Shown here one piece after another: positions 3,401 through 44,307 of a DNA stretch of 64,000 nt. The notes below the pieces were generated by a model that was not told the DNA's origin, made no database searches, and saw only the letters and a list, made by a program, of their open reading frames with translations. The number at the start of each line of letters is the position of its first letter. Within the stretch, counting starts at the first letter, position 1. The stretch is taken from assembly GCA_026419785.1 (NCBI GenBank), contig JAODTK010003821.1, positions 352,763-416,762 of the forward strand. The letters are read 5' to 3'. The stretch comes from Sclerodactyla briareus. Lineage: Eukaryota; Echinodermata; Holothuroidea; Dendrochirotida; Sclerodactylidae. A program made the position numbers and the translations under genes.

Positions 3401-5164
3401 TGTCTCGGGGGCACTTGCAATAGGTTCGTCGGTCGGCGTGAGGCGTCGCCGTTCGAACCTATTCTGCGCCTCAGGTTTGAGAAAGTGGTAAGGTCTGGAG
3501 TTCACTGATCGTCCACGCGGATGGGGACGTAAAATTGCGGTCCCGGGAGCAAGGATTGGTGTCACTCACTCCTGCCTTGTTATCATCTAGCACTAGTCGA
3601 GAAGAGAAGGCGAGTTGTCGCCGCTGCTCATCCACGATCAAAAATTTGGTTAGGGTTCCACGATGAGTCAATTGGCTTCCTGAACCGTAGCAATCAATCC
3701 AATCGAATCAAATCAAATCGTGTATATGAACGCGTAAAGCACAAACCTTGAGATGTTGTTATGTACAGGAAGATTTTCTGAGAAATTACATTGCCTGTTG
3801 GGAGAAGAAGAATATTCTCATAATAGCATTTCACGGAAACCAATAGTGCAGTTTTCAACATGAAGCCTACCTCTATTCAAAGTGTTGGATGGGCCTGTCC
3901 CATATGCACAGCCTTATGGTAGGGTACGGTAGGGTATGGTCCTTAGCTACCACCTACCAAGACTGACCAGTACCATGGAACAACAGGAACAGAATACCCT
4001 CACAGAATACTCCAAAATTATTCAAAAAGCAGAACTTAACAAATTTGTAGTTCCTATTCATGGTCTTGACCAGGAGTCTGGTCTCTCCTTCAATTGGGCC
4101 TAAAACTGGAAAGGTGTTGTACTTTCTTTTTTCCAGAGCTGTTAAGTGTGTGTCAGTGGAGTTAGAATTTAGTGTGATAAACCCCGTTTCAGAGAATAGC
4201 TCTGCACATAGCGTCTTATCCCCCTGCGCGGGCATCTGAAAAAATTCCATACATGCTGGCCAATCTGCCTCAGTATACTCGAACTTTGAGACACTTAACA
4301 TTATTATAGTCCCTAGTTGTTCAGCGATATAATTTCAAATTGGGCTCTTCGTGAAAAGTAACAAGTTGTATATTAGTTTTAGCATTTACCGTATGCTAAT
4401 AAAATCAGAAAACGCGAGCATCCTGCAAAATTTACCACTGTCCCCTTGTCAGTGCCATCCCACGCACGTTCGAAGATTTCTAAGATTGTTGGTAATCTTG
4501 CGTAAAATGGTCCTCTTAACCTTAATGTACAGTGCAATTTCAATTAAGTGAGAGGTGTTGATTGGCTTGCATCTTTGAATTGCAGTCCATTGGTGATATG
4601 TTTCGTTCTGTTCTGAAGGTTCCCATGTTTGTTGGTGACCTACTAGTTTTCAGGAAATAATTTGACAGATTTCCTGCATTTATCTGCTGGAATCAGCTGG
4701 TTTTAATGAAGTTATCGCTACTTTTACACTGACTAATTTGGGAGCGTTGGAGTCACACCGATGTGGCTGCATGAATGAAACGTTGCGATCAGTACAGACA
4801 ATGGTTCATTGTGCAGCACAGTTAAGTCTGAACATCGCAAGGCACTATGTTCGCTATGCCAACAGTTTGAGCACTGGTAGGTATAATCCATCTGCGTTTG
4901 AACAACTAACCACCTATGTCATGGCCAACTAATTGTACATGGATTGGAACGCCATATGGACAGGGACGGCCTGTTAAGAAAGTTATCACGAATGGATAAA
5001 TTGCACAATGCCCTTGCTGTAACTTTGAAGTGGCTTATTGAGCTAGTGGCTTTAAACATATTGCCAGCTGCAGATGTGTAATTGAAAGGGCGCTCTACCA
5101 AAAATATAGGGAAGGGCATATGAGGACTGGCAAGGATAAGAGGTATGGAGAAAACTAGGGTGGA

Positions 5165-5745
5165 GGGGTATGCTGGTACTCATGTTAGTACTGATACTCA
5201 TGTTAGTACTGTTATCGCGTTGGTACTGGTACTCACGTCGGAACTGGTACTCACGTTAGTACTGATACTCATGTTAGTAAGGGTATCATGTTAGTACTGA
5301 TACTCATGTTAGTAAGGGTACTCATGTTATACTGATACTCATGTTATAAGGGTACTCATGTTAGTATGATACTCATGTTTATAAGGGTACTCATGTTAGT
5401 ACCGATACTCATGTTAGTAAGGTACTCATGTTAGTACTGATACTCATGTTAGTAAGGGTACTCATGTTAGTACTGATTACTCATGTTAGTAGGGTACTCA
5501 TGTTAGTAAGGTACTCATGTTAGTTACTGTACTCATGTTAGTAAGGGTACTATGTTAGTACTGATACTAGTGTTAGTAAGGGTACTCATGTTAGTACTGA
5601 TATCATGTTAGTAAGGGTACTCATGTTAGTACTGCTGGTACTGAGTTATAGTACTGGTACTCATATTAGTACTGGCATCGCATTAGTACTGGTACTCACG
5701 TTAGTACTGGTACTCTTGTTAGTACAGTACTAATATTGGTTATCG
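5165..5745. repeat. 17-18 bp minisatellite, roughly 30 copies
   Basis: The unit is GTACTCATGTTAGTAMKG with alternating 'ctgata' and 'agggta' junctions, giving a higher-order pair of about 35 bp through much of the array. Many units have single-base losses. Both edges decay into degenerate GTACTGGTACT copies, as expected for an old array edge. Confidence 0.9.
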
Positions 5746-7547
5746 TACTTGCAGTACTGACGGTATCAATGCACCGTTACCAATACAGGTCCCAGCATGA
5801 TAATACCGAGGCTGTCGGTACAAGCAGTGAGCCATGAACACTGTCAGTTAACATCGCTACCTCAGCATCCATTCAACAAACTATTTATGAACAGAGGCAC
5901 CATGCATTAAATTGCATACATCTGGCTGCATTACTGCTTGTTCATTGTTAAGTCATTCCTTTTGCAAATTGAAAAATTGCAACTAAAGTCAGAAATGGAC
6001 GAATGATTGGGGATTCATTATTCCCCCATGTAGACTTCCACCTACCAATGTAGAACAATCTGTTAATACAACATTAGGCAGCAATTCTTTGATGATGACG
6101 TGATGCAAATCTCATGAGTATTCAGAGGAATTTGTCATACTCAGATTTGCTGTTCACATCCAAATTAATGGTTGTATTCTTTGAGGAAATATGGTATCTT
6201 GCATAAATTTTCCTGCAGAATTTTGCAGCTATTTCAACAGCATTTGCACTGAAGAGGTGAAGTAGAATATTGTGACTCTTTTTTTTTTTCAATTCTTCTC
6301 ACAAAATATTTGCCAGAAGGGAATTACCTCCCAAGTTTTTTTATTTTTCTCATCATCTCAGCTCAAATGAACACTATGCTGATTGGAAATTTCTCCTTGA
6401 TTTTGAGAATCCCTCTCATGGAGAAATCCAGAAAACAACCACCTACTATATTACATTCCTTAACGCTTACACTATTTTGTGGTTAAAATCTTTTCCCGAC
6501 AGTTTTTCCGACAGACCAACGCACTGTGACAGGGAAACGCCAAGCACTGCAGAACACAGCAACTTTTTGGTAATGCAGCAATGTGTGTGATTTTATTAGT
6601 CAGTTGAGACTTCTCTCCTATCACTGTTGAGGCTTAATAAAATGACGGTCCATCCAGGTAATTCATAATAAATGCAGGTTTTGAGAAAGGCTGATTATGG
6701 AGCCTACGAATCATGAAGTGGGTCTGGGTTCTATAATTAAGCTTTGGCCACTGATTCCCTAGCCTGGGCATGCTACTCTATGGATTTTTTTATACTCGAG
6801 TATGTGTTAGGATGCTGAATTAATGATAACACTTTTTTAACATTGACTCATTCAGTACACTACTCACCTAAGCCATATCAATTGCGGCTTTAGCATAAAC
6901 AATACTGCTTGTTTTGAAATGGAAACCACAGTAGCATATTCATTCCAATAAAAGCTCCTGTTCTAATGAAAAAAAGGAATATTTAAATTGAATTCAGGAT
7001 TCAGAATAGAGGCACAGTGTGAATGGAACAACGAATGGTTTGACCTAAAGTTTTGGCGTAATGATGGTTGTCTCCGAAAGCCAGAAAACCAAGAATCGAG
7101 CCCTTATTACATCAACTATGGTGTTCTCTCCCATGGTTGTGATAAATGCATTTCTGCTCCGATTAATTTTGTTTGTACGACATTTATAATATACCCTTCA
7201 ACAAATGCATATCAACCCAACATGAGCAAGTCATCGCTGATACCGCACAACTCTGGCGAAAAGCTAGCAAAACTGCCAAGAAAAGTTTCAAGTTCATCGA
7301 AAGTGATAATTCAATGACAATTTGACTGTCAGAATGTTCAATCAAGGTCCACAGGATGCATTTCCTCTACAAAGATGTATCAAGTCAGTGCATCACAGTT
7401 TCAATATTCGTATTGAATAAAATGCTTAATTTTATTTGAAATTGAATTTAATATACACTTCAGGAGACCCTCAGCATCTAATACTCTTCCTGAATTGGTC
7501 ACCTTACTTCTACAGGGGGTAACACTCACTCTTAGTGGGGGTGTGGG

Positions 7548-11245: not shown

Positions 11246-12483
11246 CTGAGGGGAAAGAGCGATCGAATAAATGCAAAAAACTTATAATGATCGCGAGCAA
11301 CAGTGAATAGAAATTATATCAAAATGCAAAGAACTGCCTACCTGGGAGCCGCAAACGCACATAAGATCTATTGTCTCACATTTCATTGTAAGGAGGACTT
11401 GGTAATGTTCACCCGAGGACTTCACAAAACAAAAAATGTGTTTTAAACTTCAACTCCAGGTGAGCTTCGACATTTGACAAAGGTAGCTTTGGACAATTAG
11501 GGATAATCTATTCCATAAGACCAAGCCTACATGTCAGGTCTGAAGCTTTCTTCATCTTTCCAGCATAGATATTGTATTACAAGGTTCCCAACTCTTACTT
11601 ATGTTGACCCTAGGCGACTTGGACCTCCCCTCCCCCAAACAATACAAACCCCCTACATCATGTCTTTGAGACTTTTGAACTATACCCTCTAAGACCTGAC
11701 TAAAAATAAATAGGAATAGTGGGACAATTCCTCTATTCCAAGTATGAACCTTCCACATCTCTTCATTGCACTGTTTAATGTGTTCACAAGTTTTGTAGAG
11801 TTCAGCTACAGTAATCTCAGCTAACCTTATTGCTAAAATATATACCAGCATGACACATACACAAAGGGACACATGACAGCATGGTCGCATAGATTCTACA
11901 ACATAACATGGCGAGCATAGGCAGATGGCAGGAGGAGTCGGAGTGCCGGTTTCTAGACCCCTTCTACCAAACCTCCCTGCACTATGTTTGTGACCCCTGT
12001 TTGTGTCTCAAGTCACCCCGCTAGGCTGCAGTCGTCCATAGCCAGTACAGGCAGCTGGCTGCAGAATCTGAGCATATCTGGTTCTAGACCAGCTTCCTTT
12101 CCCCCCCCCCCCCCACTCCTCCACTTCCTCTACCTGAGATCATATCCAGTTTTTAAAAAAACCCTGTGAAGTACACAACACATTATTCCAATCATCAGCT
12201 TTACAGGCAGCTGGTTGGAGAGTCTGATATGATCTGGTACTTAGGGGGGGGGGAAACGGCCCCCCCCCCCCCCCTCTACCAACCCCCCTCCCACTCTCCC
12301 ATCCCCCTTTCTCTGCCTATGACCCTGTCCTGTTACCTGTCAAGTCACCCAACTACATTATTCCATCATCAGTACAGGCAGCTGCCTGGAGGAGTCTGAT
12401 CTGATCTGGTACTAGACCAGCTCTACCAACCCCCCTCCCACTCTCCCATCCCCCTTTCTCTGCCTATGACCCTGTCCTGTTAC
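11246..12483. other. IKK intron with tandem copies of an exon end
   Basis: The first 700 bp show nothing recognisable. From about 11985 the interval holds degenerate copies of the 3' part of the next exon (separate entry) with C-rich runs at about 12103-12114 and 12257-12274. Confidence 0.6.
11985..12483 (-). pseudogene. tandem partial duplicates of an IKK exon end with its splice donor
   Basis: Three degraded copies, near 12020-12065, 12183-12225 and 12340-12395, repeat the exon segment coding QLPVLAMEYCSGGDLRQ plus the adjoining donor and intron. The marker 'caggcagctg' recurs about every 150-170 bp up to the intact exon at 12526. The copy at 12340-12395 still reads Q-L-P-V-L-x-M-E before a TAA and keeps CAG/GTAACAGG. 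All carry stops or indels, so they are unlikely to be used. Confidence 0.75.
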
Positions 12484-12690
12484 CTGTCTCAGGTCACCCC
12501 CGCTACAGTATTCCATCGCCAGTACAGGCAGCTGGCTGGAGGAGTCTTTCAGCTCGAGCGGACATCGGAGGCACGACGACGATGTTCCGGTTGCTTTCAG
12601 GTTCTTCATGATGTTGACCTCCTTGACCCACCTTTCACAGTTCTTCATGTCCATGCTACCCTTGTAGTGCTTCAAGGCCAAGGTTCATCC
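12484..12690 (-). CDS. CHUK/IKBKB-like: IKK exon: kinase N-lobe (Lys, alpha-C helix) to hinge
   Basis: The exon reads LALKHYKGSMDMKNCERWVK, then EVNIMKNLK, and later VPLELKDSSSQLPV and LAMEYCSGGDLRQ, ending at donor AGACAG/GTAACA. A-L-K is the VAIK lysine, E in C-E-R-W-x-x-E the alpha-C glutamate region, and M-E-Y-C-S-G-G-D-L the hinge. Between N-L-K and V-P-L (about 12560-12605) homology passes through all three frames (N-R-N-I-V-V, then R-A-S-D-V) and returns to the first. Upstream of A-L-K a stop lies three codons away unless one base is added to give D-E-T-L-A-L-K. These breaks argue for sequence errors or decay. Confidence 0.85.
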
Positions 12691-13239: not shown

Positions 13240-14186
13240 CCAACAACAATAGGGGTCCTGTACTTACCATAAGAAAGCAACAACGATTTTCCGAATCTTT
13301 GAACCTATGGTGACCTCAGATGACCCCTCTGACCTGACCCCAAAACAATAGGGCTCATGTACTCATTGTGAGGAACACACATACCATGTATGGGCCTCAT
13401 CAATTCACGTGAAGTTGAGATATCATGATTTACAAGCCAAAATGGGCAAATACTTGACTATTCACAAATTTTGAACCAAAATTCACCCCGAACCAAACCA
13501 AAAAGAATAGGGTTCCTGTACTCCCCATATAAAAGCGACACACCAAATTTCAACCTGATCAGACCGACTGACTATTCTGTTTACAAGTTTTCCACCAATT
13601 TGACCGCTGGTGACCTCAAGGAAGACTCGGACCTGACCCCACAAAATAGGGGTTCATGTACTTATCATGGGGAACCACACATACCAAATATGAACTTGAT
13701 CCATCCAAGTGGGGTCAAGTTATCGTGTTAACGAGCGGAAATTGGCCACCATACAAATTATCAATTTTTCACAATTTCCCAATTTTTTCCTGAATCTGAC
13801 CACCGATTTACACCAAAAACAATAGGTTTCTGTTGTACCCTCATGAAGAAAGCTGCATACCGAGTATCAACCTGATCGGATCAGGCATTCTGGACTTATC
13901 GGGTTAACAAGATTTTTCAGACTTCGACCTCTCTTGACTTCAGATGACCTTTGACCTGACCCCAAAACAATAGGAATCATGTACTCAATATGGGGAACCC
14001 ATATACCAAGTATGAACTTCATCCATCTGAGTGGGGTCGTTAACAAGTCAAATTGGCCAAATTATAAATTATGATCGTGTTAACAAGGCTAGGCGTCACA
14101 AACACACACACATAACACACACCACACAACACACACACACACTGAATGACTGCATAGATCTCTCTAACTTCGTCAAGGATTCAAAA
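13240..14186 (+). repeat. dimeric tandem array with CA tract and terminal hairpin, copy 1
   Basis: About three units of roughly 300-320 bp are present (CTGACCCCAAAACAATAGG-type marker near 13330, 13630 and 13947). Each unit is two diverged halves of about 155 bp that both contain ACAATAGGG-x-T-x-TGTACTC and end in TTATCGTGTTAACAAG. The array ends in CAAGGCTAGGCGTCACA, a CA microsatellite (14098-14142) and an imperfect hairpin (14160-14181). The same order recurs at 33.4, 42-44.4 and 53.5 kb. Confidence 0.8.
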
Positions 14187-17100
14187 ACCTGTACACTACA
14201 TGCCAACTGATTGTGGCACTCCGCTTGCAACAATTCCATGTGGCTCTATTTTGCTAAGGGTTTGGACATTCTTAATTTGGGCCATTTCACAGGTACGATT
14301 GTGTGCAAACTGATATACCACACACATTTTCATGGGAACAATTACAGCCATCCTTCCTTCCATTCAATCGAACACATATTCTACTCCCCGAATCCAATTG
14401 ACCCCATTACCAATTGTTTTTTTTATGAGGTAGGGAAGAGTATTGTGCAAGAGGGATAAGTATAGTTTACTTCAGGTTTGTTAAGCTTCCGCTTTAGATG
14501 TGTGATTTGCAAGGGCCCACTTCCTGGCCTGCACAATTTGTCAGAAATTGTTACAATGTCGCACCACCTTTCCTAATAATAACAAGGAAGATATATCCAT
14601 CCATGTAAACTGAAGCCATATGTGACCTTCGACACACATTGACATTGAACATGACAAACATTATCATACCTGTAACACAATAATATCATTAATTCAAGTC
14701 TATCCATGATTAGATCCATTTACATATAATTCTTCGATTGCACCCATACTCATTATAGAGAATATGAGCATGATCATTAACTGGTAGACTATAGTTCAAC
14801 CAACTAAAAGACAGTGGCGTAACCCACGGAAGGGGGATTGTGGGGTCAGACCCCCCCCCCCATGACCTAAGGAACAATAAAAAAGTTAACACAAAAACTG
14901 ATTTTTTGCTGTCAGTAGAGGTTTTGCTGTCAATTAGCAAATAGTGTACCGCATGTGGTCTATGCCCTAAATTGTACTATTTGCCCACAGGAGGGTGAGC
15001 CAATTTTGAGGGCACTTCCCTTTTAGGGTCCAATCTCAAACCTCCCCCCCCCCCCCCCCCCCGCCCCCCCAAGACAATCTCTCAGTATATGCGCTACGCC
15101 TGATAAAAGAGCAAATGAGAACACTCTTTGATTTGAAACTAAAACTACAAACCTCTCCATGAACTTAAGGCTGTCATGAATCAATATCGGGATTACGCAG
15201 AGCCAATAACTGAACTTTTTAGTTGACCCCTGAGTCCCAGCATATAGGGGATTATACTAGCTTCACTTGAATAGCACGAAGGTTATGATTTCTCGGCCCA
15301 AAACTAAAGTTAATATCATGCGTGATCGCACCTTCCTCTTTTCTGGAATCAAGGCCATTTCTCACGCCTACCAGAAAATCATTTCACTGATATGTTTTAA
15401 TGCTTATTAGATCTAAAAATAACTGATTTAAATAATTCCTTGTACTGATTTTTCGAATTCAGGCCAATCAGACTTTTTTTAACGTTTCTGGTGCTTGCAT
15501 CTGTTACCGGGCCTGCAGCCGCGCTGTTTGTTCTGTGCAGTTTACATGTAGGCTCCTCATTCTTTAAAGTTTCAACCTTTTGGTATTTTATCGTTTAGGT
15601 TGGCCTAAAGATTAGTAAAACAATTATATTAAACTTTTAGGGATCTTCCCCAATTTTGATAGACCAGTCTCATAATTCTCTAGTAATTTGAGGCCATATT
15701 GGAGTTCCTTTCATTCATTGCGTTCACTGAATAAGAACAACACAACCAGCTGATCGAAAACCAGATCCAAAATTTGTGTAGCTTTGATCCATGACAGTCT
15801 TAACTGATTAAATTTGTCCACCAGAAATTTCAAAATAGTGATAGAAGTACATGAATTTACCTTTCTTTATTTCTCTCCTGAATGGCTAATACTTAACTAA
15901 AAATTTACATCAATATAAACAAAATACATTTTATAAATTTCCATATTAGGCTAAATCATGGCCTTAAAGTACAAATGTCACGGAAAAAAACAAATTTTTA
16001 TAATCTTGTGGGGAATGTTATCAAAAGATACAAATGGTAATTTAAAACTGCAGAATCGACTTCTAAAGTCCGTGAAAATGGGATTTTGTACATGTACAGA
16101 GGGTTCACTGTGCTTCACAGGGACCTTTCTGCTAGAATTGTGCACAAACTGTTCTATTCAACATGCCAGTCCTAAAAAGATTGTTGAACATAGCAGGCAC
16201 CCAAATCAAGCACTGATGTGAAGAAGTAAGCTGTTGTTTCCAAGTTTTGCGCGCGTGTCTAAATTAGCTACAGAGAATCTGTGACAGAAACCACGCACAC
16301 CACCACGCGTCGTTTCTGCAGCATAGGTTTTGATGGACATTTGTTAGCGGCGTGAATGTAAGAAATACAGTGCCTGTCCTTTGCTGCCTGCTCTACGAAT
16401 AGTGCATGTGCAGTGTTCTGGCCAAGCATTATTTAAAAAACTTACTCGGCCAATAAAATGGCAGTACACACAATAAATCAAATTGAATTTTGGTGGATGC
16501 ATTAATTGTGAACGTACAGAAATAGTCAATGATTCAAAGAAAATTATTCGTGACCTTGTACTTTAAGGTAGTAGAGAGGGATTGAAGGATATGACCGACT
16601 CATGAAACAAAAGGGAAGGTACTGAATACCAGGACTCATCAGTGCCCTTCGATGTCATATGTCAGTGCCCCCCTCCCCCCCCCCCCTCCTTCTTAGGGGT
16701 TCCTGATAGGGTGATCTAGATATGGTGACAAATATGGGAAGTGGGGGTGGGGGGGAAGGGAAGTGGTGGAACATTTTGGATGGTAATGGTATTGTCAATT
16801 GGCCTCGCCCTACTACCCCCTACAAAATAACATTGCTCAATCAAATTGCATTTTCGGCAAATAAAATGTTGGTTCAAAATATGCACTACCCCGCCTCTTC
16901 CCCCACCCCCTCCCCCACCCCCCTCACTTCCCCCCCACACATAAGTGCAGGAATGACTGCATACATACCAAATTCCGCCATAGTACTACCAGTCGCCAAT
17001 GTTCCAGACCCCAGTCGCTTGCCCTTCGTCCACTTTGTTCAATTTTGTTTTAACCCTCCTGATGAACAACGAAAGCAAAAAATAATTGAATACAAGAGTT

Positions 17101-18240: not shown

Positions 18241-19395
18241 GGGGGTCCATAACAATGCGGACACACGGGATAGAGTAGATAGGCATTTTGGGAATGCACA
18301 GATGGGCTTTCGGGCTCAAACTAGGCTTCGGGTCCATAATTCTTGAGACCCCTGAAGGTACGGCAACTAGGCTTTAATTATGACTGTAAATCAGGCACTG
18401 AGTGGGCATCAGCCTTGTAGAGCCATTTTGCATATTTACTTGGTGCGCTCTCAGTGGAAATCAGTTGGAGGAAAACTCAGTTTCGCCAAATCCAAACGTC
18501 CAGACAACCCTCTGTTCTGACAATTTATAAGCAATACTTACCTTTTTTGATTGCAGTAACAGGACTACAAGTCGGTAGGATCTGGAGTGGTAAAGTGAGT
18601 ATAATTTGTGCAATAAACTGGCTGCGTCAGAGCGGTTGGGTGCCGTCATTTTTTACTTATTCAGATTTCCATCAGACGATCCATGTGTGCCGAATCTCAA
18701 TTGATCTGATCAGGACAATAGAGAGTTATTGTGTTACAAGATCAATTCAGTTCTGTTGATAATCAAAGATGCGGTCTGCTAGACGGGGTGGGTGATTGGC
18801 CCACCATTCGAACTCCTCCCGAGAGATTTTGTAAGGGCGAACACGTGAACTAAGTCAACGAGAAGAAGGGAAGCTTTGAACTTCAATTCCCCCAAAATAG
18901 CCTGTTGGCGGTTCCATACTCTTTGCAGAATTGTGCACGTTTTCACTGCATGCACAATTTCAAATCCAATATAAATTTTCTCGTGCGATAAAATTTTTCT
19001 AACTCGACATCTGATAAATTTATCGCAATCTCTCCTGGCATGCTCTACTTATGTCGACGTGTAAGAGGAATGCATGAAGATTCAGATACCAAAGGTCTAT
19101 AGTATTCTGACAACCATATTCCTCCCCCTGTTTTGCTGCATTCTGAATAGAACCTCTAGTTGCTTGAATGTATCCAATCAGAGCTAAAAAAAATGTTCGG
19201 GGCTGCTTTCGATGTATCACCATATCAACTAAGTAAGAAGAATACCTCGGTTTGTGAATGGGAAGTTCCTAATTACACTACACATTAGGCCCCTAAATTA
19301 GTTAAGGGAGGCGAAGAAGAGGCTGACAATTATTTGTCATTTTTTTTTTGCAGTGGCGACGTAATCACGTCCGAAATCGACCAGGGCCACTAGTT
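18241..19395. other. no gene recognised
   Basis: Unique-looking sequence of mixed composition. Short open frames show no motif. A T tract at about 19341 precedes the DIRS-like insertion. Confidence 0.45.
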
Positions 19396-19545
19396 TCCTA
19401 CAAAACAGTACGGGTTTGTGAATCTGTGAGACTACGAATACTTACCCCTTATCGACCATGCCCCCCTCAATATGCTACCGAGTGTCTGGCATTTTAACAT
19501 AGTACCGGTTGGCCACCCCATCGCCCTTCTTTTTCGGTTCTTTTT
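19396..19545 (+). repeat. left inverted terminal repeat of the DIRS-like element
   Basis: The outer 45 bp (starting ACAAAACAGTACGGGTTTG) match in inverse the left half of the internal region at 19640-19702. The inner part, from ACTTACCCCTTAT through TGTCTGGCATTTT to CATCGCCCTTCT, matches the right end in inverse. It also resembles the arms of the 415-bp element at 9562. Confidence 0.8.
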
Positions 19546-19631
19546 TCCAGGCTAAGCGTCCTGCATTCTCGAGGGGTTACCCCGGAAGCGAATGTGTGGA
19601 CGCCTGCAACGGCCCTGGAGGGGGATGATGG

Positions 19632-19740
19632 GTGGACGGTCCGTATAAGGGGTAAGTATCCATAGGCTCACAGATTCCAAACCCGTACTGTTTTGCAGAA
19701 TCTATTTCACCTACTCTACTTATCGGACGCCATGCACCAA
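19632..19740. repeat. internal complementary region (joined copies of both outer ends)
   Basis: Left half 19639-19698 is the reverse complement of the left outer end (GGGGTAAGTAT ... CCCGTACTGTTTTGCAG). The right half 19699-19740 is the reverse complement of the right outer end (AATCTATTTCACCTACTC ... CATGCACC), with an 8-bp gap. They meet at about 19698. In DIRS elements this junction mirrors the closed circle of the replication intermediate. Confidence 0.75.
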
Positions 19741-19989
19741 GTCTTGCACAGGGCGCTTGGTGGTGGTCCCGTGGTTCGGCCGTCGCGCCGTTAGGCGGAT
19801 GCTGAGTAGTCCGGAGGTGCAGAGCCGCTATGGCAACTGCCCTTCCTTGTACAGGGGTGGGCCGCGTCCGTCCCATGCACGCGACAAAGGTGTTCGGAGA
19901 CTTCCACGCCGCCGCTTTCTCTCACGACTTCTGTCTAGCGGGGCTCGAGAAGCATGCTGCCGCGATGCGGAAGCCAACATTGATCGCCG
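19740..19989 (-). other. GC-rich 3' part of the DIRS-like element, no domain seen
   Basis: Only about 250 bp separate the RNase H-like region from the internal complementary region. That is too short for a tyrosine recombinase, which DIRS elements normally carry at this end. No R/H-x-x-R/Y pattern was found. Confidence 0.45.
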
Positions 19990-20330
19990 TGACGGATCAA
20001 ACGAGTTCCGCCCTCGATAACCAAGCCCATGCCTGGCGGCACATAGTGCTTGTCCTGTGTCCCTCCGGGTTTTCCTGAGAGCGACCCGATCGCGGGGAAT
20101 CTCTCCTCCGGCGCGAACGCCACCGACTGACCTTTGGCCAAGAAAGCCGGACCCGAGCGGGAACGGATCCCGTCTGGACCGTGCCAGGGAAGGACGGCTT
20201 AGTAGTAATCGCCAAGACAGCTCCTGCGGGCTCGCGGAGGCCACTGACCCCCCACAACCGCGTTGAGGTTGAGGAGCTCCAGCTCTCGTAAGCGTTTCGC
20301 GGATGTGCGAGGAAACATGGCCCGGAGCCA
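19990..20330 (-). pseudogene. RNase H-like domain of the DIRS-like element
   Basis: Minus strand near 20260-20305 reads S-H-I-R-E ... followed one frame away by ELELLNLNAVVGGQW. This resembles the H-I-N-x-L-E-L-x-A-V motif holding the catalytic Glu of DIRS RNase H. Further on (20050-20070) is KPGGTQDKH, similar to the Q-G-G-T-R-S motif. The catalytic D-N segment between them is not clear. At least two frame changes occur. Confidence 0.45.
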
Positions 20331-21149
20331 AAAAGAGCGGCAGGAGACGCCTCCGCTACGTTTCGCCTGAGCTGGCTGTCAGTGACCTGCCCCGCCCTGG
20401 AGGACCCATCCGGGAAAAACCTCGATGTATCGCCGCAAGGGCGGAACGGAAGACCCGGATCGTCGAGCCCTGCTTTCCCCTGGAGAAGAGGGCCCATACG
20501 AATGACATCGCCGGCCTACGGAGGCAACCACGGGGTTACAACCGAGTATGTTTGCGACCGTCCGCAAACGTCCCCCCGGAACACCGCTTGTTTCGGAACA
20601 CTGTTGTCCTCGTCTCCCCGCAAAGAGCCAAACGAGGGCGCAAGTGCCGTGGTATACCAAGCTAACCCATCTGCCGGGCCGGAAAGGATCCGGAAGCAGA
20701 GGGTCCGAAGTCGCGCATTGTTAGCCGCCACAAGTGAAGATCGACGAACGGGGGGTCGTGGGGGGCGGTCGGACCGTCACTCTGCGTGCCCTTCCGCTGA
20801 TCCCCCAAAAGGGGGGCCGCGTCGTCCTAAGCTGGCCCCTCAAACCGAGAACGACGTGCCCGTGGTCACTGTCGCCCTGGAAGGGAGTCGCAAAATGCGA
20901 CTATACCGCAGCCACCCATGTGGCTCTGTTCACCCACCGCCGCCCACCAATTTGGCTCGTCCACAGGACATGAAGAGCCGAGATCCCCAACGAAGAGGTA
21001 TCGGCTTGGCGGATCAGACCAACATACTTGCGCCGCAACGGCCGCGCGCGTGACGGCAGAGATCGAGAATATCGATCATAGTGGCCGCCGCGAACAATGG
21101 GGCCGAGTCCCGCCCTGGCGGGGAATACTCGGAGGCAGGATAACGCTGC

Positions 21150-21650
21150 ACGCCGCGGCAACGTCCGAAACGCGCTGAGATCCGCGCCATATGAGCATCG
21201 GACCCCCGCTTTCGCGGGGCCACCCGGGCCAATCGTCGGTGTGAGCGACGACCGGATGCCCTCCTGCCGCAAGAAGCGCAGATGGGGCTGCATACCCAGG
21301 TGAAGAGCTGGGGGCCGTCGGGAGGCCGAATGGGAAGGGACCACCAAGCGTAGTCACCCCCTGTACGGAACCTAGGATCGGCCGTGAAGGGGGTGCCGGG
21401 GCAGATGAGCGTCCCGAAGGTCTCTCGACGTCGCCCCAACGCGCTCTCTCGGAAGGATCGGGATGCGGTGCAGGGACCTCCACGCCGGATTGCCTTGGGG
21501 CGGACGGCGATACCTTCCGCGTGTGCTTCCTCCGAGAACGATGACGTGCGTAAACACCTCGACCTCGCTTCGCCTAGGTCTCGGGCCTCCCTTCAGCGAG
21601 AGGTCGAGGTCGGCGGCGCTGGCCCGAGGCCGCCTCCTGCCGGTTCTCGC
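21150..21650 (-). pseudogene. reverse transcriptase-like domain of the DIRS-like element
   Basis: Across three minus-strand frames the expected DIRS order appears: G-V-Y-A-R (about 21560), D-L-R-D-A-H-L-P (about 21400), FPFGLPTAP (21312-21338), QLFTWV then MQPHLRFLRQEGIR, and VVAHTDDWPGWP (about 21216-21252). FPFGL-x-TAP and the x-DDW box match the L-P-F-G-L-S-x-A-P and Y-L-D-D-W motifs of DIRS reverse transcriptases. T replaces the usual hydrophobic residue before D-D. Frame changes every 50-100 bp make it non-functional as read. Confidence 0.6.
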
Positions 21651-22599
21651 CTGCCGGGCGGCATTGAAGCCGTCCACAAAAGGGGTCTACTACGCCCAGG
21701 AGGGCCAATCCGCACGAAGCAGCGTCATGGCCTCCGCAGGTTATGACCCGCCCCCCTCGAGGACGATGTCCCGACACGCTGCCCGTGGGCCCATACGGAT
21801 CATTTCCGGTGTCCGCTGAGAGCTCGCTCCTCTACGCCGTGGAAAACGACGTAACCACGATTTCCTTCCCGACGAGCCGGTAAGCCGCATGCGTAACATG
21901 TGCGGACAGACGAGTCGAGGTCCCAGATTTCATTTTAGAGAGGCCCCGCCTCAGAGTTTCGAGACATCCCTCTTTGGGGAGGTCCCCGGGCGATGGACTC
22001 GAAGCGGGTGGAACCCCCTCGCCCGATCGGCCCCGACAGGTGGTTGTCTCCGGCCCGGCAATGAGGGAAGGCGGGCACGGTGGCGCGGTGGCTGTTCCGA
22101 TCGGGAACGGCTCTTGGAGCCATCCCCGTTGGAAGTGGGCGACCGCGCATCCGGAGCGTCACGGGAATGTCCGAGCCAAGGAACCCGCCCCGCTCGTAGC
22201 CCTCTAAACCTTTGGGTCTCCGAGGCGAGTGAACTACCGAAACAAAGGCGGCCCTAACCGGGACCGGTTACAACCGGTGGCGAGGCCTGCCTCAATGGAC
22301 CCGAGACTGGCTCCAGAAACTGTTTTCAGTTCAGGGCACTTAAGAACTGGGTCCGGAGGAGGGGGAGGCGGGTGGTCGAAGACGACCCAAACAAAACTCT
22401 CGTCCGGTCGCGCCAACCTCTCGCGCACGTGCTGCGAGAACGACAGAGTGGGCCTGCGCCCCTCCACCTCCGATGGCTCGTGCGGTAAGAAGTCCCGCCG
22501 GGACTCCTCCCCGAGCGGGCGGCATGGGCCTGCCTCGGCGGAACCCCCCACCGGTGAGGACGGGCCCACGGGCATCACTCTGGCTCTGGGCTGACCAAA
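21651..22599 (-). other. GC-rich internal part of the DIRS-like element, no domain recognised
   Basis: High-GC frames stay open on both strands by composition alone. No gag or zinc-knuckle motif was recognised. Confidence 0.4.
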
Positions 22600-23893
22600 A
22601 AAAAATAGATCGGTTCGGCCAGTTGAAGCCCGACTGGCTCTCCTGCGCCAAACCCCCAAACGAGCGTGGTCCACTCTCCCCAGGGTCCTACCTCGGTGTT
22701 CGGAAACCCACCGGAGCCCCTGGCGCCTAAAGTGGTTTTCGGCCAGCCGGAGCCAACCGTGCGCCCCGTGGGTGTCTCGAAATCTGCGCGTCCAGCCCTC
22801 TAGATGGCCGTTCCGGGCCCTGCCGCTTCCGATGCCGCCCAGCGGGCCCCGACCGAGCCGTTGGTCTCCGTCGGGCCCTTGGCGATTGGTTCTTTCTGCC
22901 GTGCCCCAGGATCATAATCGATCTGGTCGGCTGAAAAACGGATCTGTGCTCTCTCATGCGCCGGGCCCCCAGCGAGCCAATCGGTAACCTCGCGAACCGA
23001 AGCAACCAGCGCCCCAGGAGCCGAACCAGAGCGACGGTCGGTTTTCGGCAGGCTGGAAAAACGGCGGCTTCTCTTCTCATTCGCCGGGACTCTAACCTCA
23101 TGCGTCGGCCCTTTCATGAGGTCCGTATCTCTCTCGGTACGACCTAACCGGGCCAACGAGACCCTGGCCCTCGGTGGTTGGCCAAGTCTACCGAGTCTGA
23201 CCGGATGTGCTCTGCATGCGCCCTAGGATCCGACCGTCCGTTTGAAGCGCCACCTGGCGCTCCTCGCGCCCAAACCAGCTAGAACCAACCCCGCCCGTCA
23301 CAACCTTCGCTGGACTGCTGTCTTTCCACGTCCACCGGCCCGGCTCTCCTGCCACCCCGGGCCCCAACCCGAGTCGTTACCCCTCTCGAATACCGGACAA
23401 CATCGGTGTCAGAACCGCCGGCGTCGCCGTGGGTCGGTTCGGGCGGGGCGGCCGAAAAAACAGCGCGATCTGTGGCGGCCCCGCCGGCGCCACTGTCTCA
23501 GGTACTGATCTCCTCGGTGTCTGGTCCACGAGCCCTGCGCCCGGGCGGTTGGTCCGGCTGTAGCCGACCGGCTCTCCCCAGGGCGCCCTAACCGAGCCGT
23601 CGACAACCCTCGGAGTCCGGACTTTTCGGTGTCCCGATCCACTGGAGCCCCCGGCTCCCAGTGTCCTGTTCGGTCGGCCGGTCGAGCCGACCGGGCGCCC
23701 GCCGGCGCCTACCGAGCCGTCGACCCCTCTCCGAGTCCGTATCCGTTTCTAACCCAACTCGGAGCCTCCTTCCAGATGGTCGTTCGGGCCGCCCGAAGCC
23801 GACCGGGCGCTCTGCCGGCGCCCTAACAGAGCCGTCGACCCCCCTCGGAGTCCGGATTTTCGGAGTCCAACCCACCGGAGCACCCCGGTCCCT

Positions 23894-23927
<34 letters not shown>

Positions 23928-24350
23928 GGGTCTGTTCGGCACCCCGGACGCCCCGCAGGCGCCCTAACCCAGCCGTCGACCCCTCGGGGTCCGGACCTCG
24001 GTGTCCAACCAACCCAGAGCCCCCCTGCTCCGGTGTCGTTGGCCGCAAAAGCCGGCCCGGGCGCTCCGCCCGCCGGCGCCCGCGGGGCCGTAGACTCTCC
24101 TCGGAATCCGGACCTTCGGTATCCGACCCCCACCAGAGCCCCCCCCGGCGTCCCGGTGTCGGTTCAGGTCGCCGAAGCCGGCCGGCGGAGGCCCATCGCC
24201 CGGCCCCCTCCGAGCGTAGACCCTCCTCGGATCCCCGGACCTCGGTATCCGACCCATCCCGGTGCCCCGGCACCCGGTGGTCGCATCGGCGGCACTGAGA
24301 GCCGCCGGGACGGCCCCCCCTACTGAAACGCCCCTGGATCCGACCGTCCG
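22600..24350. repeat. GC-rich tandem repeats of about 120 bp
   Basis: A unit containing GAGCCGTCGACCCCTC, GGAGTCCGG, a GTCCGACCCACCGGAGC part, GGTCGGCCGAAGCCGACCGG and GCTCCGCCGGCGCC repeats at about 23600, 23720, 23836, 23977, 24092 and 24218. More diverged copies (GGCTGAAAAACGG ... CTCATGCGCCGGGCCC) extend left to about 22740. On the minus strand the better copies stay open and give a peptide period near 40 residues with GWTPK-R-TPRGVDG and RAPAERP. Coding or not cannot be decided. Confidence 0.7.
23896..23926 (+). repeat. run of 31 G
   Basis: Uninterrupted G tract inside one 120-bp unit, making that unit longer than its neighbours (141 bp). Its length in this sequence is unlikely to be exact. 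Confidence 0.85.
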
Positions 24351-24601
24351 AGCCACCCGATAGGACGCGGTTCGGCCGGCTTTCGCAGACCTGGGCGCTG
24401 CCAATTGCGCCTGGGTTCGGGACCGCCCAGCCCAGCCGGAGCAGGTTGTGACGATCCCAGGTTCCTTTCCCCTGCGGAGTGACTCGGACACTGCCTGGTC
24501 CATCCACCTGAGTCGCCCACCCCGAACCCCCCCCCGCCCGGAGGGAGCTAGTCCCCCTGCGTCTTGAACCTTCTTACCCTTGGTCTCCCTTGGGCTTCTT
24601 T

Positions 24602-24660
24602 TTTCGGCTGTCCCCCCGATGAACTGCAGGTTTCGGCTGTCACCCCGATGAACTGCAGGG
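24602..24660 (+). repeat. 29-bp direct duplication
   Basis: TTTCGGCTGTCMCCCCGATG followed by AACTGCAGG occurs twice head to tail with one difference. Confidence 0.85.
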
Positions 24661-24940
24661 TTTCGGACCGTGAAAACCACCTGCCCTACGGACTCCCGGC
24701 CCACGGGACCGACAGGGGGAGTCCTCGAACGGTACTACCCAGTCAGGCGTCTTCCCACGGTTGGTCGTACTGCCTGCGGGGAACCACCTTGTGCCCGGGC
24801 CCGACGTCCGTTCCGGCACGGCGCTCCACTTGCTTGCTGAGGCCAGCGGTTGCTGCCGCAAACCTAGGTCTCCCTGGCTCTTGACTCTCCCCAGGATGTG
24901 AACCGCCGAACTTCCTATTAAAACTACTACCTATCTCTCC

Positions 24941-24962
24941 GTCTCTCTCTCTCTCTCTCTCT
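24941..24962 (+). repeat. CT microsatellite
   Basis: About ten CT units near the 5' end of the DIRS-like element (minus-strand sense). Confidence 0.8.
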
Positions 24963-25524
24963 CGCCTTCGTCGGCCCGCCCGCACGCGAAAAAACTTCCC
25001 CCGCGCACACCCGACAGCAACCAAACCACAACCCCACCCCCGGGCCGGTAAGGGACGGGGAGGGGACAGGGGACCCCCCCGGGACGGCTGGGAGTAGGGA
25101 CCCGAGGGAGGAGTGAGGTAGGGGGAAGGAGGAATCCGGGTACTTCTGACCAACTTACGAACCAAACACCCCCAAAACACGCCAAAGCCCAAAAGCGAAC
25201 CTCCCAGAGGTGAGAAGCCATACGCCCAAATGTGTACCACACAAGTGACTGTTTTAGGCAACGGGAGTACACAACAACCTCCACTAACATTAGGCGCAGC
25301 ATACGCTGTCGGAACGTTTACTTACCGCGCGACGGCGACAAAGAGAGAAACAAAACGACCAAAACATCGCGAAAACGAACACAACTCTTTCCAAATAGCT
25401 TCTCCACGAAGCTGAATGATAGCTTCGGTCCCCTCCAAACGTTCACCACCGACCAACTTCCTTTGGTCCAAAATTTTTGACTTTTTTCCATGCCGAAAAA
25501 CCACTCGTTGCAGACGAAAGTCTG

Positions 25525-25649
25525 GCAAAGAGAAGGGCGCTGGGGTTTGCCAACCCGGTACTATGCTAAAATGCCAGACACTCGGTAGCCATATTGATGG
25601 GGTGCATGGTCCGATAAGGGGTAAGTAGAGTAGGTGAAATAGATTATGA
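25525..25649 (-). repeat. right inverted terminal repeat of the DIRS-like element
   Basis: Inner part (AGAAGGGCGC ... AAAATGCCAGACACTCGGTAG ... TCCGATAAGGGGTAAGT in pieces) is inverse to the left repeat. The outer AGAGTAGGTGAAATAGATT is not found at the left outer end but is found, inverted, in the internal region at 19699-19722. Confidence 0.8.
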
Positions 25650-26739
25650 ACACATAATGTTGACCCAGCCTGTATAAATCAATACGAAGTAAAATACCGC
25701 ACAACTGACATTTTTGTCTTTTTGACAAGTTGCGATCGTAATCACTTACTAAGATCTGACCGGAGCACAGTTTAATGATGGTTACGCTAGCCTGTAAATC
25801 AATACGAATTAAATTACTGACACAATGGATGAGAAAACATACTTAATTAAACAAGAAGTTAAGGAACTGCTGTTAGGCCTATATAATTTATACAGTTGTC
25901 TGGATCCGATCTGACAAACTTTCTAATGTGTAAACATGTGGTTAGTTGAGAAAATTCACACCGCAAAACTATCGGACCATTCCTATGCCACCCCCGCGTC
26001 AAACCACACGGGTTCGTAGAATACGTTGACTTGTGCTGTAATAATCGTAATACTTAGGACTAGTATCTCAACTAGTATTATATAGGCTTATTATACGTTC
26101 AACGCTACGAATTCGAAACCTTCTGCTCAAACCTTCTGCAATTGCTTGCTCCAAACTCCGTGGTCCCAATAGCTCTATTGTTCCCGATCTTTCTCTGTAG
26201 GCTACTTCACATCTCACTATAGAAGGAGTATTCGCATGATTATTCCTTAGACGAGAAATATCAAGTGTGCCCTCCAGTTATATCCCTAGCGAACTTTTCG
26301 AAGGTTGGAAATACACGGTACAAGATACTTTCGAGTAACTGCGCGAATCGCTCGCTCGGGCTGTGTAACGTACGTCGGAATATGCGTCGGTACTAACCAT
26401 CGCGTCCGCCGATTCGGGTCAGATCTCACTCGCGATAGTCCACGCGTTCTCGACCTCGTACATCTGTATATACCACCGTATACAATGACCATGTAGAGCG
26501 GACAAAAACTGAGGGGGTTTGTTATTCGCGTCCATCATCTTTGAAGCACGTACGGTTTGTAATCACTCTATCTGGTAATTAACAAAGTCCCACGTTCGAA
26601 AGAACTCACCATAAATTGCGAGGTCAGATCTCCGAGTGAATTATTGGAGAAATGAAAAGGATCCTGGGAAAATTCACTTTCCATGGAAATCAACCTTAAA
26701 CTACTCAGATAACATGACATGTAATTTTGTGAACTTTCA
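25650..26739. other. no gene recognised
   Basis: 'cctg-taaatcaatacgaa' occurs at 25670 and 25792, a short direct repeat of about 120 bp spacing. A CpG-rich patch at 26290-26490 has a 63-codon frame of no known type. Confidence 0.4.
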
Positions 26740-41959: not shown

Positions 41960-44307
41960 CACACTGATTTCAAGATTTTTCAGACTTTGACCTATGGGTT
42001 GAACTCAGATGACCTCTGACCTAAACCCCAAAACAATCGTGGCTCATGTACTCGTTGTGGGGAACCCACATACCATGTATGGGCCCATCCATCCCAAGTG
42101 AGTTGAGATAATCATGTTACAATCCAAATTATTGACTATTCCCAAATTTTCAATCTTGGACCCAAATTCCCCCCGAACTAAACCACAAACATATGGTTCC
42201 TGTACTCCCTATATAAAAGCTACACACCAAAATTTCAACCGGCTCAACCGACCGACTCTTCTGTTGACAAGGTTTTCACACTTTGACCTCTGGTGACCTC
42301 AGACGACCTCGTGACCTGACCCCAAAACAATAGCGTTTCAGTCCTCATCATGGGGAACCACACACCAAGTATGAGCTTCATCCTCCAGGTGGGGGTCGAG
42401 GTTATCGTGTTACCAAATTTTTTCACAATATCACAATTTTTCCCCCGATCTGACCCCGAAATTACAAACCGAAACAATAGGAATTCTGTATCCTCATAAA
42501 AATCTGCATACCGAGTTCCACCCCGATCGGACCAGGCCATTCTGGACTTATCGTGTAAACAAGATTTTCAGAATTTGAACCTCTCTGACCTCAGATGACC
42601 TTTGACCTGACCCCAAGAAAATAGGGATTATGTACTCATTAATGGGGAACCCATATACCAAGTATGACACTCATCCATCGAATTGGGGTCGAGTAATCGT
42701 GTTAACGAGCTAAAATTGGCAAATATCAATTTTTCACAATTGTCCATGTTTGTCCCCACATCTGGACCCCTGCTTTACACCAAAACAATAGGGTTTCTGT
42801 ACGCCTCAGAGAAAGCTGCATACCGAGTTTCAAACCGACGGACCAGGCATTCTGGCTATCGTGTTAACAAGATTTTTCAGACTTTGACTCTCTTACCTCA
42901 GATGACTTTGACCTGACCCCAAGACAATAGGGATTATGTACTATTATGGGGACCCCATATACCAGTAATGAAACTCGATCATCCAGGTGGGGTCTATTCA
43001 TCGTGTTTACAAGCTTAAAATTGGCCAAATTAAATCAATTTTTCACAATTGTCCATTTTTTCCCCAAACTTGACCCCTGAACCTCGGACCCCTCCCTGCT
43101 TTTAAACACCAAACATAGGTTTCTGTACTCCGAATGAAAAGCTGCATAACCGAGTTTCACCGATCGGACCAGGCATTCTGGACTTATTAATCGTGTTAAC
43201 AGATTTTTCAGACTTTTTGACCTCTCTTGACCCTCAGATTATCTTTGACCTGACCCCAAAACAATAGGGATCATGTACTCATGGGGGACCCAAACACAAT
43301 ATGGAACTTTATCCATCTACCGTGGGGTCGAGTTATCGTGTTAACGAGCCTAAATTGGCCAAATCAATCAATTTTTTCACAATTTCACATTTTTCCCAGA
43401 ATCTGAGCATCCCCGATTTACATAAAAAACAATAGGGTTTTCTGTACTCCTCATGAGAAAGCGGCATACAAAATTTCAACCTGATCGAACCAAGGCATTC
43501 GGACTTAACAATGTTACCAAAAAAAATCAGACTTTGACCTCTCTTGGCTCAGATTACCCTTGACCTGAACCCAAACCATTGATATCATGTACTCATTAGG
43601 GGGAAACCATATACCAAGTATGACTTTATCCATCTAAGTGGGGTCGAGTTATCATGTTTAAATACTAAATTGGCCAACTTAATTATCAATTTTTCACGAA
43701 TTTTTTCCCGAATCTGAATCTGAGACCCCCGGTTTATAACCAAACACAATAGGGTTTCCTTTACTCCTCATGAGAAAGCTGCATTCCGAGTTTCAACTCG
43801 ATCGGACCAGCATCTGGACTTTTCATTTTAACAAGATTTTTTCAACTCTGACCTCTCTTGAACCTCAGATGAACCTTTGCCTGACCCCAAAACAATAGAG
43901 TTCCTATACTCATTTAGGGAACCCATATACCAGTAATGAAATTTATCCATCTAAGTGGGGTCGAGTTATCGTGTTAACGAGCTAAAATGGCCCAAATTAT
44001 CAATTTTTCACAATTTTCCATTTTTTCCCCCAATCCGACCCCCGATTTACGAAAAAAAAAAAATAAAATAGGGTTCTGTACTCCCTCTAAGAAAGTAGCA
44101 TACCGAATTTCAACCCGATCGGACCTAGGCATTCTCGACGTATCGAGTAAACAATATTTTCAACTTTGACCTCTCTTGACCTCAGATGATCTTTGACCTG
44201 ACCCCAAAACAATAGGGATCATGTACTCATTATGGGGAACTGATATATAAAGTATGAACTTGATCATCCAAGCGGGGTTGACTTATCATGTTAACAAGGC
44301 TAGGCGT
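41960..44307 (+). repeat. dimeric tandem array, about eight units of 290-340 bp
   Basis: The CTGACCCCAAAACAATAG-type marker recurs near 42017, 42311, 42602, 42909, 43246, 43560, 43872 and 44196. Each unit holds half A (GGGATCATGTACTCATTATG, then CCATATACCAAGTATGAAC, then GTGGGGTCGAGTTATCGTG) and half B (GGGTTTCTGTACTCCTCATG, then AAAGCTGCATACCGAGTTTC, then GGCATTCTGGACTTATCGTG). A and B are diverged copies of one monomer of about 155 bp. Indels are frequent. Confidence 0.9.

Follow-up and report, generated by a model that had tools for sequence, protein, structure and literature searches.

What is the GC-rich block that interrupts a 64,000-nucleotide stretch of the holothurian Sclerodactyla briareus genome (assembly GCA_026419785.1, contig JAODTK010003821.1, positions 352,763 to 416,762 of the forward strand; hereafter, the window)? 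An earlier reading of the bare sequence by a model, the original prediction, proposed a DIRS-like retrotransposon on the minus strand. We found that the block is almost certainly one copy of a multi-copy DIRS1-like tyrosine recombinase retrotransposon, and that its family is new but an ordinary representative of the known DIRS1 class. This reading is supported by the terminal anatomy of the element and by reverse transcriptase (RT) motifs that occur in order. The element body has a GC content of 62-69% per kilobase at 20-25 kb versus ~36-53% elsewhere in the window, which bears out the predicted contrast with the flanks; GC contents of 61-63% were found in seven other copies. We read region 19001-26100, scanned it for repeats, and compared its ends by self-BLAST and then by finer alignment, which yielded the following features.

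19398..25645, minus strand: whole DIRS1-like element, 6248 bp, with its coding 5' end at 25645 and its 3' end at 19398; delimited by match boundaries in nine loci and by the aligned termini
19398..19438, minus strand: outermost 3' stretch, comprising the right extension and the divergent repeat; its complement lies in the internal region and not at the other end
19439..19534, minus strand: 3' inverted terminal repeat, from its alignment to 25527-25627
19626..19698, minus strand: right internal region, complementary to the 3' end (alignment; BLAST E 2e-12)
19699..19738, minus strand: left internal region, complementary to the 5' end and lacking 7 nt of the shared core in the window copy
25527..25627, minus strand: 5' inverted terminal repeat, from self-BLAST and alignment
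25628..25645, minus strand: outer part of the 5' terminus, at which the coding strand starts with AATC

Alignment of 19439-19534 with the reverse complement of 25527-25627 revealed an inverted repeat with 91 matches, 5 mismatches, and 5 gaps, and self-BLAST recovered the inverted pair 19439-19508 / 25555-25627 (E 1e-17). These boundaries refine the inverted ends first proposed at 19442-19538 and 25530-25626, and the outermost parts of the two ends differ, as in DIRS1-like elements. The left outer end (19401-19452) matches the reverse complement of 19645-19695 at 92% identity (E 2e-12), and the right outer end (25622-25645) matches that of 19699-19722 without a mismatch (24/24, E 1e-7). Gapped alignment extended these matches to two adjacent internal regions, 19626-19698 and 19699-19738, which together closely approach the complement of a head-to-tail joint of the two outer ends; the internal region that the original prediction had placed at 19632-19740 thus spans 19626-19738. 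Because the RT motifs lie on the minus strand, we place the internal regions near the 3' end of the element. In the window copy, a core sequence, TACTTACCCCTTAT, occurs at both ends and again in the right internal region; among the four copies shown, L021 and L023 also carry it in their left internal region, as does L024 with small differences. Within the internal regions, the junction reads AGATT/CTAC in window orientation (the slash marks the joint). An overview of DIRS1 elements lists these same traits, namely inverted repeats, a pair of adjoining internal complementary regions towards the 3' end, a right extension, at least 10 nt common to the ends and internal regions, and no target-site duplication (PMC3266345).

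Inverted ends of ~100 bp are also what a DNA transposon or foldback element would carry, in which case the internal match would be due to chance. Self-comparison argues against chance for the three end segments (E 1e-17, 2e-12, and 1e-7), and the same layout recurs elsewhere in the genome: in 16 loci besides the window, the internal junction was AGATT/CTAC or close to it by eye, with the right end joined to the left end. The RT motifs occur in order, and the copies compared lack a target-site duplication, with one sharing 3 nt. The failure of protein profiles to match RT, described below, would suit a DNA transposon; even so, we regard this explanation as exceedingly improbable.

We looked for further copies in the genome containing the window (319 Mb, 3171 contigs), and all counts given here include the window itself. 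The left end with the internal region as query gave at least 71 matches, of which at least 41 scored 243 bits or higher (40 of 375 candidates were scored); the right end gave at least 40 (40 of 363); and the outer left terminus gave at least 58, at least 40 of which reached 157 bits (40 of 618). These end-search counts are lower bounds. A 165-residue RT piece gave 74 matches, with some copies counted more than once (135 of 135 candidates scored). Thus, the host genome holds many copies with the same ends, and their boundaries agree. Nine of the ten regions fetched as long copies contained long matches, the longest at ~74-82% identity. The first match started at 19398 in seven of these nine loci, at 19397 in one, and at 19406 in one; the last match ended at 25643-25645 in seven, and the L025 and L027 pieces stop before that end. 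L019 is a short piece that holds only one element end. The sequences flanking the two copies in L027, and those flanking L050, L053, and L054, are nearly identical among copies, which suggests that element and flank were duplicated together.

The flanks of these copies bear on integration. No target-site duplication was found in the seven copies compared, whose flanks share 0, 0, 1, 1, 1, 0, and 3 nt (GTT in L028); an eighth copy, L026, had been cut 8 bases inside the element. Flank cuts follow BLAST ends and are possibly 1-2 bases off. We fetched 30 left ends out of at least 40 strong matches to the outer left terminus, and found T at position -1 in 27 (binomial P 2e-12 versus flank composition) and A at position -3 in 20 (P 2e-5). 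In these 30 left flanks, T at -1 and A at -3 are preferred and the middle base is variable, so that a 3-bp junction motif shared with the target is at most a possibility. By eye, 11 of another 14 left ends, the window not among them, also had T at -1. One of the seven copies, L024, adjoins a further copy, and what flanks it on the left is therefore element sequence. No single triplet is fixed on the 3' side: the flanks read ATT on the coding strand in 10 of 30 and AAT in 3 of 30.

The anatomy, junction, and flanks fit the circle-and-recombinase model published for DIRS1 (PMC3266345). In this scheme, the transcript would be reverse transcribed, and the ends would pair with the internal region, which would act as a splint so that the outer ends are joined and a DNA circle forms. 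A tyrosine recombinase encoded by the element would then exchange strands between the AGATT/CTAC junction of the circle and a short target. Exchange at so few junction bases would leave no target-site duplication. For the holothurian element, transcription, the circle, and recombinase activity are steps that we infer.

The coding evidence for the DIRS1-like assignment comes mainly from three RT motifs, known as A, B, and C.

21408..21422, minus strand: RT motif DLRDA, from a motif search, in a frame different from that of the two motifs below
21310..21336, minus strand: RT motif FPFGLPTAP, from a motif search
21229..21243, minus strand: RT motif HTDDW in the place of YXDD, from a motif search and an alignment of copies

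FPFGLPTAP and HTDDW lie on the minus strand, as originally claimed. Motifs A, B, and C occur together and in order on the coding strand of the window, while none of the five motifs sought was found on the opposite strand. Resampled sequences never held A, B, and C together (0 of 300); two held C and eight held the last pattern. Two or more of the five motifs were present in 20 of 78 loci, many of which do not cover the region (L009 is the window, and L016 and L028 are one copy). The motifs and their order thus point to a putative RT, as expected of a DIRS1-like element. RMPFGL, YLDD, and LTTDAS are named among the motifs of, or shared by, the group in a second source (PMC2685390). ARAGORN called a tRNA-Val within the RT region (21182-21280, minus strand), which we took to be probably a chance call.

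Several results weigh against the DIRS1-like reading. In Pfam searches, families of RT, RNase H, or recombinase were matched by none of 10 pieces from the window, 64 pieces nearly all from other copies (one also among the 10), and 19 distinct selected pieces (three among the 64), and a profile built from ten RT pieces matched no PDB chain. Pattern searches of the window found neither of two RNase H patterns, TTDAS and VDLF. A tyrosine recombinase, a methyltransferase, and gag were not demonstrated in the copies read. Within the terminal anatomy, the window copy misses 7 nt in its left internal region; at the junction, the -2 flank base is not conserved (A 15, T 9, C 5, and G 1 of 30), and the window copy's own left flank ends in TTTC, with C and not T at -1. 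The original prediction had staked the DIRS reading on a DIRS RT hit in some frame; in a formal sense, the Pfam and PDB searches supply none. We attribute the missing RT, RNase H, and recombinase matches to one-base gaps, which fragment the reading frames of the copies examined. The profile test, made with Pfam and the PDB, has little power because frames break about every 50-100 codons. The matches that these searches did return were taken as chance: Glyco_hydro_76 (E 0.31) in the window pieces; Microvir_lysis (E 0.0029) and the integrase DNA-binding domain IN_DBD_C (E 0.16), each in one of the 64 pieces; and HVO_A0261_N (E 0.33), SH3_9 (E 0.13), DUF7092 (E 0.025), and TM_HPP (E 0.041) in the selected pieces.

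RT motifs alone do not separate the DIRS1-like group from other tyrosine recombinase retrotransposons, and the recombinase and methyltransferase of the element are unread, so we considered whether it belongs to the PAT, Ngaro, or Viper group. All three are of the same general type; PAT has split direct repeats, and Ngaro and Viper are without a methyltransferase (PMC3266345). Inverted versus split direct repeats separate DIRS1-like elements from PAT in two sources (PMC3266345, PMC4157794). The holothurian element has inverted ends and adjacent internal complementary regions, and no split direct repeats were found among the direct repeats of 20 nt or more reported for region 19001-26100; the one near-end pair, D10, is explained by the ends and the internal region. 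Membership in one of these other groups is therefore very unlikely, and support for the DIRS assignment extends to the DIRS1-like group.

Within that group, the element shares with Dictyostelium DIRS1 and animal families the differing outermost ends, the two 3' internal regions, the right extension, a shared core of ~14 nt, the absence of target-site duplication, and RT motifs that in relatives precede an RNase H motif; its 6248 bp lie near the top of the published 3974-6283 range (PMC3266345). By the description in the same source's table, LgDIRS2 of Lottia gigantea is alike in combining an AAT start with an ATT internal junction, the sole such row of 28, and has internal regions of 46 and 67 nt versus ~45 and 52-73 in the element. 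LgDIRS2 differs in its length (5036 bp) and repeat lengths (34, 141, and 46), and it is listed as ending in AAT, whereas the 3' side of our element is not fixed (PMC3266345). It differs from the DIRS1-like families described in the overview by a histidine for the YXDD tyrosine and by repeated units in its 5' part, the only unusual traits seen.

The histidine is common to nearly all readable copies. We aligned 38 distinct copies, leaving out the window, and 35 were ungapped at the first codon of HTDDW; the codon was CAC in 33, CAA in one, and CCC in one, and tyrosine in none. Over all five codons, 12 copies were ungapped, of which 5 read HTDDW and the rest differ at one or two residues. Because the residue is so widely shared, it was probably already present in the family ancestor. 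By comparison, YL/IDD was found in 25 of 28 elements in the DIRS1 overview (PMC3266345). HTDD had no occurrence in the 8 listed of 173 papers, which does not show that the motif is unpublished. On balance, we lean towards a DIRS1 lineage that carries histidine in place of the catalytic YXDD tyrosine of its RT and yet has amplified to many copies.

As assembled, the window copy is non-coding, and its reading frames are broken. These breaks could reflect decay, or they could be mainly assembly noise, in which case the animal may carry intact copies of an element that is not long dead; this concerns the state of the element and not its kind. Repeat pairs within eight copies gave gaps to mismatches of 105:90, and the window versus nine loci gave 3528 gaps and 6342 mismatches over 50634 aligned bases, overlapping repeat-part matches included, with 2221 one-base gaps. 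For comparison, 29 matches between the window's remaining repeats, more diverged and for the most part overlapping, gave 843 gaps to 2801 mismatches. Some host gene pieces also show frame jumps: neighbouring pieces of certain actin exons are out of frame (C2792 267684/267689; C1260 170539/170529 and 170651/170653), and two HSP70 pieces overlap in different frames. CA repeats at window positions 14097, 44308, 53618, and 63119 have single dropped bases, a possible sign of assembly noise. Against noise as the main cause, one-base gaps are not enriched beside identical bases (864/1640, 53%, with a background of 53%), substitutions of 6% also separate the repeats of one copy, other actin stretches are unbroken (e.g., C2792 242651-243052), and the broken actin pieces could be pseudogenes. 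We give mainly assembly noise an even chance. Part of the frame damage is probably noise, worse in repeats, because the host actin and HSP70 pieces show frame jumps and the CA repeats drop bases. Mismatches by codon position between the window and nine loci showed no clear periodicity and did not reveal the frames, and an alignment of 203 RT pieces was dropped since its frames were mixed.

Beyond the RT motifs, reading of the minus strand and repeat searches located three further features.

20852..20869, minus strand: VTTGTS where relatives read TTDAS, a degenerate RNase H-type piece, found by reading and missed by the pattern search, its position worked out by hand
19883..19906, minus strand: WKSPNTFV, a possible but weak tyrosine recombinase end, found by reading; no recombinase family was matched, only TM_HPP at E 0.041
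23541..24283, minus strand: imperfect repeated units of ~115-125 bp in the presumed gag part, from repeat families and self-overlapping matches

TDASL pieces occur in eight loci, six of which read TTDASL, and this one motif in relatives, degenerate in the window, may mark an RNase H. We take WKSPNTFV to resemble a tyrosine recombinase end, a weak likeness, and no Pfam recombinase family matched the piece. A DPPY-type pattern search for a methyltransferase gave no convincing piece. The region of repeated units contains a run of 31 G (23896-23926), the only repeat reported there by Tandem Repeats Finder; the same program found a period of 114 in L021 (3536-3797) and of 125 in L028 (4296-4725), and no comparable repeat in L023.

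Elsewhere in the window, a tandem array with a ~317 bp unit (43120-44292, 13279-14187, and ~53500) has similar sequence at other window positions and adjoins CA repeats. A minisatellite of ~31 copies of an 18 bp unit lies at 5173-5725, and an exact 68-bp duplicate (12274-12341 / 12421-12488) has a spacing of 147 bp. Rfam gave no match in the window. Among 139 of 142 pieces outside the element, only kinase and MYND-finger families were found at E 0.001 or better, and a second look at ten of the pieces outside the element gave nothing.

Together, these data add a multi-copy DIRS1-like family to this genome and indicate that terminal anatomy alone can identify such an element even though its proteins are unreadable. 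Frame breaks in the assembly should not be taken as decay without better reads. If the sequence is accurate, HTDD would represent a naturally occurring change in the active site of a functional reverse transcriptase and, if borne out, would allow the tolerance for variation at the YXDD tyrosine to be gauged from nature.

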